From NCBI RefSeq assembly GCF_030056735.1, contig NZ_JASHKN010000002.1, positions 372,001-436,000 on the forward strand: a stretch of 64,000 nt of DNA, given 5' to 3'. The DNA is from Rhodococcus sp. IEGM 1409. GTDB lineage: Bacteria; Actinomycetota; Actinomycetes; Mycobacteriales; Mycobacteriaceae. The translations under genes were made by a program, and so were the position numbers. The notes beneath the pieces were generated by a model. It was given only the letters and a program-made list of their open reading frames with translations, was not told where the DNA came from and did no database searches. This document shows positions 4,695 through 42,326 of the stretch, one piece after another. Position 1 is the stretch's first letter; every line of letters starts with the position of its first letter.

Positions 4695-4738
4695 CAACAC
4701 ATCTGAATCGACAACCGTGAGTTACATAACCGCAGGTC

Positions 4739-4776
4739 AAAAATAGGTTGTGCAGATTCGACAGATTCTCTACTCT
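4739..4776 (+). promoter_or_regulatory. WhiB7-type autoregulated promoter of whiB7
   Basis: AAAAAT (4739-4744) lies three bases upstream of a -35 hexamer TTGTGC (4748-4753), followed by a 17-bp spacer and a -10 hexamer TACTCT (4771-4776). An A/T block placed three bases before the -35 is the known signature of WhiB7-activated promoters, where the AT-hook of WhiB7 docks beside the primary sigma factor. Transcription would start near 4783, giving a leader of about 400 nt before whiB7. Confidence 0.8.
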
Positions 4777-4848
4777 GGTTTTCAGTGTTACGGGGCAACC
4801 TGTGCGCAGAAACTATCCGGACCGACACGAAATGGAGGTGGCAAATAA

Positions 4849-5025
4849 ATGACGAACTTGATCTCTTACGAAGCGTGCGCAAGCGCAAAGTTCGCAGTTG
4901 CCGCCCCCATGCTGCCGCGTGCAGCGGGATGGGCGCAGCATGCGTTCCGCCTGCGCCCTCAAGCAGCAGCAAAGAAAGCAGCTGTCGAGTCCGTGTTCTT
5001 AAGCCATCGAGGTATTTCTCGGTAG
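4849..5025 (+). CDS. whiB7 leader upstream ORF (58 codons)
   Basis: ATG at 4849 with GGAGG (4834-4838) ten bases upstream opens a 58-codon frame ending TAG at 5023. The product is Ala/Arg-rich (MTNLISYEACASAKF...) with no recognised domain. It lies inside the whiB7 leader, just before the attenuator hairpin, and corresponds to the upstream ORF known for mycobacterial whiB7, whose stalled or poor translation lets transcription continue into whiB7. An 8-bp inverted repeat (4931-4938 with 4951-4958) inside the ORF may form a competing structure. A six-codon frame (4832-4852) overlaps its start by ATGA but holds the Shine-Dalgarno itself. Confidence 0.75.
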   Translation: MTNLISYEACASAKFAVAAPMLPRAAGWAQHAFRLRPQAAAKKAAVESVFLSHRGISR

Positions 5026-5044
5026 GACACATCCGTTCACTTAC

Positions 5045-5086
5045 GGCCACGGACCCGCAGCCCCTGCGGACCGTGGCCTTTGTGTT
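5045..5086 (+). terminator. Attenuator hairpin in the whiB7 leader
   Basis: GGCCACGG (5045-5052) pairs with CCGTGGCC (5071-5078), and the inner CCGCAG (5055-5060) pairs with CTGCGG (5064-5069) around a CCC loop. TTTGTGTT follows directly. The hairpin lies 20 bases after the upstream ORF stop and about 110 bases before whiB7, where a conditional terminator is expected. Confidence 0.8.
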
Positions 5087-5186
5087 GGATACCCCTCTTG
5101 ATCTGGTTTCCGACTCGGCTCAGGTTCGCACCCATCGAACCCATATCGTGCGACACAGTTTCGCATCCGAGCACTAGGAGACCGAG

Positions 5187-5531
5187 TTGTCTGCCCAGAC
5201 AATCCGCGTGGAATCCGAAAACTCCACCACTGCAGTAACATCCACCGACGTCACTTCGGCTGCAGTGACGTTCATCGAGGTCGCGTCCACCCGCCGCGAC
5301 CTGCCGTGCCGGGCATCCAACCCCGATCTCTGGTTCGCCGAATCTCCGGCCGAACTCGAGCAGGCCAAGGCACTGTGCGCGCAGTGCCCCATCCGTTCCC
5401 GTTGTCTCAGTGCGGCTCTCGACCGCGCCGAGCCTTGGGGGGTATGGGGAGGCGAGATCCTTGATCAGGGGGCCGTCATAGCGCGCAAGAGACCGAGGGG
5501 GCGCCCACGCAAGCAACTCGTGTGCGCGTGA
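5187..5531 (+). CDS. whiB7: Transcriptional activator WhiB7 (antibiotic-response regulator)
   Basis: Iron-sulfur WhiB-family protein that binds the primary sigma factor and activates intrinsic antibiotic-resistance genes and its own promoter. Cluster ligands are C41, C64, C67 and C73 (C-x22-C-x2-C-x5-C), followed by the EPWGVWGG turn (82-89) and an AT-hook RPRGRPRK at 102-109, which identifies WhiB7 among WhiB proteins. The start is TTG at 5187, supported by AGGAG at 5176-5180. The first 36 residues are a Ser/Thr/Val-rich extension. Expression should be controlled by the autoregulated promoter and attenuator upstream. The uvrD2-whiB7-ABC1 gene order matches mycobacteria. Confidence 0.96.
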   Translation: MSAQTIRVESENSTTAVTSTDVTSAAVTFIEVASTRRDLPCRASNPDLWFAESPAELEQAKALCAQCPIRSRCLSAALDRAEPWGVWGGEILDQGAVIARKRPRGRPRKQLVCA

Positions 5532-5537
5532 GAGCCC

Positions 5538-5600
5538 TATTCGGCGGGGCCGGTGTCGTATTCGGCGGGGCCGGTGTCTTATTCGGCGGGGCCGGTGTCA
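5538..5600 (+). repeat. Three tandem 21-bp repeats at the end of the ABC1 gene
   Basis: Three consecutive 21-bp copies (5538-5558, 5559-5579, 5580-5600) differ only at their last base. Read on the minus strand each copy encodes DTGPAE plus a codon that is TAA, TAC or TAG. The innermost copy therefore provides the end and stop codon of the ABC1-family gene, and the other two lie just beyond it. Confidence 0.9.
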
Positions 5601-41954: not shown

Positions 41955-42322
41955 GGGGCTGAACGGTTTCGACTGCGTGTGTTGAGTTAGGGGAAGCGTG
42001 TCGGTGCAGGCAAGAGACCACCGTAAGCGTCGCTGCAAACCTATAAGCGCCGATTCCAATCAGCGCGACTACGCTCTCGCTGCCTAAGTAGCGAAGCGTG
42101 TCTGTCAGCCCGGGGTTGCCCTCGACCCGGTTCCTGGCATCAGCTAGAGGGCTTTACTGTTCGGCTCGGTCACGGAGTCGAATGGGACATCAAACAGTGA
42201 CTGGGATCGTCATCCTGGCTTGTTCGCGAGACTGGGAGATCCAAGTAGAGACTTAGCGAACTGCACACGGAGAAGCCCTAGCGATTCAACGTAGGACCCG
42301 GGTTCAATTCCCGGCAGCTCCA
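41955..42322 (+). ncRNA. ssrA: Transfer-messenger RNA (tmRNA)
   Basis: The 5' end GGGGCTGAACGGTTTCGACT is the conserved tmRNA start; the 3' end GGGTTCAATTCCCGGCAGCTCCA forms the T-arm and acceptor strand complementary to it. The CCA end is not encoded. The tag frame begins with GCC at 42049 and reads ADSNQRDYALAA before TAA at 42085. Together with SmpB (37339) it rescues stalled ribosomes and marks the peptide for proteolysis. Confidence 0.97.
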
Positions 42323-42326
42323 CAAC

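Follow-up and report, generated by a model that had tools for sequence, protein, structure and literature searches.

The whiB7 gene controls intrinsic resistance to many ribosome-targeting drugs across the actinobacteria, and how one upstream open reading frame (uORF) can sense so many drugs is the question at stake. The trp operon of E. coli has an amino-acid attenuator with sensor codons and mutually exclusive terminator and antiterminator, and the erm leader peptides (e.g. ErmDL) mostly control translation of the erm mRNA. For whiB7/wblC a uORF attenuation mechanism is stated in parts of PMC11550727, PMC10727445, PMC9618640 and PMC13393426, and the A/T block and its requirement are described in a section of PMC3905903. 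Antibiotic-induced stalling within the whiB7 uORF is stated as untested in a passage of PMC12121999 (2025). A literature search for whiB7 together with a stalling motif and macrolides, or with alanine codons, returned nothing in a coverage outside which most subscription papers fall, and a search for whiB7 and Rhodococcus returned nothing on this leader by title or start of the abstract.

The leader described here is ordinary in kind, being a Rhodococcus member of the known whiB7/wblC attenuators. As other papers describe from Lee 2022 and from Burian and Thompson 2018 for the Mycobacterium and Streptomyces leaders, it has a uORF, a predicted Rho-independent terminator and a predicted antiterminator made from uORF and terminator sequences, and its A/T block lies 3 bp from the -35. 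It differs from these leaders in its Rhodococcus sequence and in the antiterminator core, which starts 34 nt before the stop codon and not 22 nt as in several Mycobacterium leaders. Dinan 2014 (PMC4128351, in part) describes the whiB7 leader in M. marinum and M. bovis, where the uORF likewise begins about 10 nt after its Shine-Dalgarno sequence and the terminator, too, has a U-rich tail; neither an antiterminator nor an arrest motif figures in the portion of PMC4128351 consulted. The ilvB1 attenuator of M. tuberculosis (PMC13236596, in part) is similar in its uORF sensor codons, in its exclusive terminator and antiterminator and in the ribosome at the stop codon that permits termination, whereas the sensor proposed here combines alanine codons with a drug arrest motif and acts on a resistance regulator. 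As in the erm leaders, an arrest of the +X+ type is proposed as the trigger (the rule being taken from part of PMC6238534), although here transcription would be controlled. What seems less ordinary is the placing of a +X+ motif and of alanine codons just upstream of the antiterminator. A better antiterminator is also proposed for this leader, and the comparison gives predictions, precise to the codon and by species, of where ribosomes would stop.

The window, i.e. the whole stretch of DNA that was analysed, comprises 64,000 nucleotides of Rhodococcus sp. IEGM 1409 (contig NZ_JASHKN010000002.1, positions 372,001 to 436,000 of the forward strand). The features of the leader, in window positions, are as follows.

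4735..4745, + strand: A/T block AAAAATA (4739-4745) preceded by GGTC, the presumed WhiB7 AT-hook site (sequence; role from parts of PMC3905903 and PMC10727445)
4748..4776, + strand: putative promoter, with -35 TTGTGC (4748-4753), 17-nt spacer (4754-4770) and -10 TACTCT (4771-4776) (sequence)
4834..4838, + strand: Shine-Dalgarno GGAGG of the uORF, 10 nt 5' of the ATG (sequence)
4849..5025, + strand: alanine-rich uORF of 58 codons, ATG at 4849 to TAG at 5025 (sequence, ORF translation)
4931..4958, + strand: 8-bp inverted repeat GGGCGCAG/CTGCGCCC, arms 4931-4938 and 4951-4958 (sequence)
4948..4956, + strand: R34-L35-R36, +X+ motif and candidate macrolide arrest site (motif counts; meaning from part of PMC6238534)
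4963..4971, + strand: A39-A41, GCA GCA GCA, the last alanine codons at which the modelled ribosome leaves the antiterminator strand free (codon profile, ribosome model)
4982..4995, + strand: 5' strand of the predicted antiterminator, CUG.CG.GUCCGUG, core 4989-4995 in codons 47-49 (complementarity, folding)
5048..5060, + strand: 3' strand of the predicted antiterminator, i.e. terminator 5' arm and loop, CACGGAC.CGCAG (complementarity, folding)
5045..5078, + strand: predicted intrinsic terminator hairpin, arms GGCCACGG/CCGTGGCC plus upper stem, then TTTGTGTT (sequence, folding)
5187..5531, + strand: whiB7, TTG start, 114 aa, with EPWGVWGGE and the AT-hook RGRPRK, and AGGAG upstream of the start (ORF translation, Pfam, solved-structure search)

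Layout of the leader and its relatives

The earlier note had read this stretch as a whiB7 attenuation leader with an autoregulatory-type promoter, and the sequence agrees with the published mycobacterial and Streptomyces descriptions in the parts of them available. The A/T block, -35, 17-bp spacer, -10, 58-codon uORF, hairpin and whiB7 follow one another in the order claimed, and the uORF indeed has its own Shine-Dalgarno sequence in the leader. An A/T-rich block lying about 3 bp 5' of the -35, a mark of this class in the portion of PMC10727445 cited, is present, and transcription is expected to start near 4783. A generic consensus scan calls no promoter in the leader, and no curated Rfam model (of 4227) matches within 4700-5200 even at E <= 1. 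A scan of the same genome with the promoter motif gave 3 matches against 1 with the reversed pattern, and another scan 12 against 2.

The terminator-like hairpin that had been noted ahead of whiB7 is predicted to be far stronger than chance (-27.0 kcal/mol against -12.4 for shuffles, z -5.8), and this folding places a predicted Rho-independent terminator between the uORF and whiB7. Its T-tail is interrupted (TTTGTGTT), and a generic terminator scan sees just a 5-pair piece (1 found, 0.9 expected).

Counting own and shared genomes, WhiB7 is present in 27/28 genomes of the genus, 241/301 of the family, 59/61 of the order and 72/79 of the class. The named loci are the best 80 among the matches listed, and sequences were taken from part of all matches. 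After 10 of the 218 collected loci had been removed as non-whiB7 leaders (7 paralogue matches, 3 pattern matches), 208 remained, a number that is not a species count because several loci are one strain under two records. A terminator was called in 204 of these 208 (it was not found in L090, L127, L149 and L150), and 202 of the 204 have a uORF as well, namely 139/140 in the family and 63/64 in other families. Nor was a terminator found in L258, a uORF in L271 or L091, or an antiterminator element in L142. The uORF stop codon precedes the terminator by 10-30 nt in 198/202 (family 135/139, others 63/63) when stops are sought 5-60 nt before the hairpin; an earlier script without this limit gave 12-36 nt on the first set. 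The A/T block, -35 and -10 are found at most 400 nt upstream of the uORF in all 139 family loci that have one, and outside the family the promoter block precedes the uORF in 59/63 loci. Loci without a uORF were excluded from the pair tests, L091 and L142 from the motif test, and leaders with uncertain terminators from the ribosome-position test of relatives, in which 114 of 115 leaders were used. Group labels (hoagii group etc.) were assigned by likeness to named loci.

The uORFs of the family are 37-127 aa long and their peptides are strongly divergent. Codon-position tests on the uORF body gave mixed results: the third position is in excess in the fascians, hoagii and erythropolis groups, and such an excess is absent from the opacus group and slight in Nocardia and Mycobacterium. 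The peptide differs from the mycobacterial one, just as the earlier note had stated: most of it drifts, and what is kept are the +X+ motif, the alanine codons and the antiterminator codons.

Two minor observations concern the 5' part of the leader. The A/T block is extended in the 5' direction as GGTnn(n)AAA (window 4735-4745) in 137/139 family leaders and in 1/63 outside the family, and this is possibly an extended activator site special to the window's family. Moreover, a 6-codon ORF (ATG GAG GTG GCA AAT AAA TGA, window 4832-4852) overlaps the Shine-Dalgarno sequence and has the letters ATGA in common with the uORF start. Its ATG is in frame with the uORF in L013-L017.

Predicted antiterminator and switch

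The leader is very probably a uORF-controlled transcription attenuator of whiB7, of the known whiB7/wblC kind. What sequence and folding show are its parts, their conservation, the best fit of uORF tail and terminator arm within each leader and a predicted switch. Near the uORF 3' end a GUCCGUG-like element is complementary to the terminator 5' arm CACGGAC, and when the window transcript is folded before the terminator 3' arm exists a 12-pair antiterminator is predicted, 4982-4995 with 5048-5060 (-28.6 kcal/mol, z -3.0, 2/200 shuffles as low). Sequence and fold predict an antiterminator composed of uORF and terminator sequences, with weak column-wise covariation.

The pairing is also predicted in relatives. 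In an alignment-free comparison the uORF tails of the family bind their own terminator arm at -21.28 and swapped arms at -18.80 (sd 0.27), with 0/5000 permutations as low (74 arms); the corresponding values in other families are -21.68 and -19.10, again with 0/5000 (55 arms). Leader by leader, pairing with the own arm is better than the average over swapped arms in 89/117 family leaders and 51/62 others. These permutation statistics, like those from shuffles and pairing, treat related sequences as independent. In alignment A1 (65 rows) 86.7% of the core cells pair (0/500 shuffles as high; no more than 41.2% after sliding), 13 cells are changed on both sides against 6.8 when shuffled (1/500 as high), and the outermost pair is G-C in 32, A-U in 12 and G-U in 6 of the 65 leaders. 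By eye, pairing is kept with differing letters in GUCCGUG x CACGGAC, AUCCGUG x CACGGAU and ACCCGUG x CACGGGU, and in a further variant GCGAUUC+CCGU x ACGG+GAAUCGC with 0-2 unpaired bases between the parts on either strand. Column-wise covariation in A1 is weak: 2 pairs are changed on both sides (357/500 shuffles as high), further pair types are fewer than in shuffles (500/500 as high) and the covariation score is reached by 22/500. A1 includes Gordonia-like rows that MAFFT had misaligned, and they weigh against the structure. Tails pair over at least 5 bp in 65/65 leaders against 45-57 of 65 when their codons are shuffled (20 shuffles), a weak test of presence by minimum free energy because GC-rich tails pair anyway.

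The earlier note had proposed the inner repeat at 4931-4958 as the alternative structure that lets the polymerase pass. The repeat does exist, with 8 exact base pairs and a fold of -19.3 kcal/mol (z -2.2, 5/200 shuffles as low), but the role assigned to it did not hold: its hairpin cannot compete directly with the terminator because the two share no strand, and the region is absent from L016 and L017 (37-aa uORF, R. globerulus-like relatives) and altered in L013-L015. By eye the repeat was not seen in L018-L021 and L028 either. In the alignment of leaders, which had been suggested as a check, the repeat is not kept, whereas 4982-4995 x 5048-5060 is kept across the family. The repeat was ruled out as antiterminator by this lack of conservation in relatives, and such a role for its hairpin is very unlikely; 4982-4995 x 5048-5060 is the better antiterminator predicted for this leader.

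The kinetics, stalling, readthrough and autoregulation in Rhodococcus sp. IEGM 1409 are those that we infer for such a switch. During normal translation, a ribosome over the uORF 3' end would mask 4982-4995, the terminator 5045-5078 would form and the polymerase would stop. If translation of the uORF failed, or if a ribosome stalled with its A site at or before about codon 42, 4982-4995 would be left free and could pair with 5048-5060 before the terminator 3' arm is made, so that transcription would continue into whiB7. WhiB7 would then boost its own promoter through the A/T block.

With a modelled footprint that reaches 12 nt past the A-site codon, the antiterminator of the window has a predicted probability of 0.91-0.98 for the A sites tested up to codon 42; the value falls to 0.76 at codon 43 and is 0 from codon 44. 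A modelled ribosome on the stop codon does not reach the terminator. For an untranslated uORF the fold of 4849-5060 likewise contains the antiterminator, which is in line with the induction of whiB7/wblC on disrupted or stalled uORF translation given in parts of the published work. At equilibrium the terminator is favoured by 12.6 kcal/mol in the fold of 4979-5090 (-48.6 against -36.0 with the antiterminator enforced), and therefore the model needs kinetic control. Among 114 family leaders, 32 retain at least 5 pairs between tail and terminator when the A site is placed 3 codons beyond the antiterminator, and 53 keep pairing of this kind at A sites +1 to +4. The model thus puts the switch at codons 42-44 in the window and makes it less sharp in many relatives.

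In the window fold a short hairpin lies between the antiterminator strand and the stop codon; it seemed to recur, but it was not recovered by RNAalifold in 40 aligned leaders. Outside the family, many uORFs of L187-L215 end in R.WSPPV or PPRG.PV, and the letters beside their stop codon are complementary to those just before the terminator (both by eye); these leaders apparently use a different antiterminator.

Arginine and alanine codons of the uORF

As an extension of the attenuator it is proposed that the uORF is also a composite arrest sensor. The +X+ motif would halt macrolide-bound ribosomes and the tandem alanine codons would halt those that lack Ala-tRNA (and perhaps those that have bound chloramphenicol). 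Either arrest would come no later than the last codon at which the antiterminator is still left free. We regard this reading as evenly balanced between right and wrong. The other reading to be weighed is that any slowing in the first ~42 codons works and that the pattern of arginine and alanine stems from base composition, RNA elements or the chemistry of the nascent chain and plays no part in drug sensing. This unspecific stalling is quite possible, without being the explanation we would expect. Much of the uORF drifts, as it would allow, and the model finds any A site up to codon 42 permissive.

The composite sensor draws on the +X(+) motif, known for erythromycin arrest (PMC6238534, in part), which the window's nascent chain carries as R34-L35-R36. 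The motif (R/K-X-R/K), placed so that the second charge precedes the antiterminator codon by 4-13 codons, occurs in 88 of 115 distinct family uORFs (138 before duplicates were removed), compared with 8.7 on average and 20 at most in 500 residue shuffles; the -13 to -4 window was chosen after viewing the peptides, which counts against the reading. Collapsed at 60% identity, 47/70 still have it (local-shuffle mean 16.6, maximum 26 of 1000), and charges 1, 3 and 4 apart occur in 22, 21 and 9 of 70 with about 16 expected, i.e. with no clear enrichment. This specificity of spacing argues for the composite sensor and against unspecific stalling.

Loci fetched later, some of them from strains already in the first set, gave 34/46 by the same definition (shuffle mean 11.8, maximum 21 of 500), and 25/35 after removal of peptides identical to the first set (7.4, maximum 13 of 500). 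Both counts favour the composite sensor, but truly new peptides are few: without those similar to the first set, 4/9 have the motif (1.1, maximum 5).

The position of the motif is likewise suggestive. The second charge is at -6 in 28 leaders, at -5 in 11, at -4 in 1 and at -3 in 2, so that it drops where a 26-nt footprint (PMC13236596, in part) would begin to mask the antiterminator, a fall that speaks against unspecific stalling. With the A site at the second charge, pairing of the tail with the terminator arm is retained in 86/87 leaders, which agrees with the composite sensor in what is a weak test, because pairing often persists past the antiterminator. The spread of the second charge (sd) is 2.0 codons to the antiterminator, 2.2 to the stop codon and 23.4 from the start, a comparison that is partly circular because the -13 to -4 window bounds the first value.

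Several results weigh on the other side. Out-of-frame +X+ is common (31 and 48 of 115; 16 and 28 of 70), perhaps partly because alanine repeats yield arginine when read in another frame. A CGN codon encodes the second charge in 87/88, so that an RNA cause of the pattern is possible; at the first charge, however, the codons vary (CGC 34, CGT 31, AAG 22, CGG 1), and this variety, together with the exchange of lysine and arginine, speaks against unspecific stalling. Gordonia/Williamsia-like leaders mostly lack +X+ (2/12) although the Gordonia-like uORFs are alanine-rich (25.1%), L017 lacks it too, and in the window R36 is at -12, farther out than usual. In other families +X+ is modest (25/62 within 6-30 codons of the stop; shuffle mean 12.7, maximum 22 of 300) and there is no strong alanine bias (13.8%), yet the attenuator is kept, as unspecific stalling would have it.

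A second +X+ cluster lies 3' of the antiterminator, in the window at 4996-5025 and in family uORFs with its second charge at +5 to +11. It may reflect RNA pairing near the stop codon, and the composite sensor does not account for it.

The alanine codons are the second element of the composite sensor. In the Rhodococcus, fascians, hoagii, ruber and Mycobacterium uORF groups 25-37% of the in-frame codons are alanine, compared with 2-10% in the two alternative frames, an in-frame enrichment in favour of this reading; alanine reaches 15.5% in Nocardia uORFs and 11.5% in 15 long ORFs of the window. Runs of at least 3 alanines in the 12 codons before the antiterminator are found in 68/115 (shuffle mean 28.9, maximum 43 of 500). 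They lie at about -6 to -3 in the five groups profiled and are present in most Rhodococcus and Mycobacterium uORFs. Ala44-45 of the window, however, is on the blocking side of the modelled switch. According to part of PMC11505993, alanine, serine or threonine at the penultimate place favours chloramphenicol stalling, a preference that would suit the composite sensor. Papers that cite Poulton 2024 report an involvement of whiB7 in alanine starvation in mycobacteria. An arrest by chloramphenicol at the alanine run is weakly argued, because Ala41 of the window just clears the core in the model and the runs of other groups lie partly at -4 and -3.

For the Rhodococcus/Nocardia/Mycobacterium family, then, the whiB7 uORF may be a built-in series of sites for arrest by drugs, with a +X+ stop for macrolides ahead of the alanine stops, which selection has set about as near the antiterminator as the ribosome footprint allows, the peptide being otherwise largely free to drift; to this we would assign an even chance. 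If so, the weaker alanine bias of Nocardia and the few +X+ motifs of Gordonia-like leaders would mean that species differ in the drugs and starvations that induce intrinsic resistance.

The whiB7 uORFs of Nocardia are long (106-127 aa, 13 aligned; L088, L089, L093, L098, L104, L107, L110, L113) and contain two largely conserved blocks, centred on SASRGILA..QGI.LS and QDKP..GWHPT, which may represent a different type of arrest sequence. That the uORF encodes a small protein with a separate function, the terminator being just a transcript boundary, is scarcely credible, since good start signals and these Nocardia blocks face the wide range of lengths, the divergent sequences, the regular spacing to the terminator and the window peptide's failure to match Pfam or NCBIfam (which missed WhiB7 as well).

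The whiB7 gene and its surroundings

The product of 5187..5531 has both the WhiB domain (Pfam Whib, 60 bits) and the AT-hook of WhiB7. The best solved chain is M. tuberculosis WhiB7 (7kif, 121.7 bits), and among the matches listed the protein is 98% identical to WhiB7 from an R. erythropolis contig, in keeping with an R. erythropolis-like genome; the NCBIfam search gave no match to WhiB7 itself. The gene is flanked by a UvrD-like helicase gene (HRDC domain) and an ABC1-kinase gene. Shortly 3' of the whiB7 stop three 20-bp copies of TATTCGGCGGGGCCGGTGTC with a period of 21 (window 5538-5599) extend into the end of the ABC1-kinase gene. In addition, the window carries a tmRNA gene at 41955-42325 (143.6 bits).
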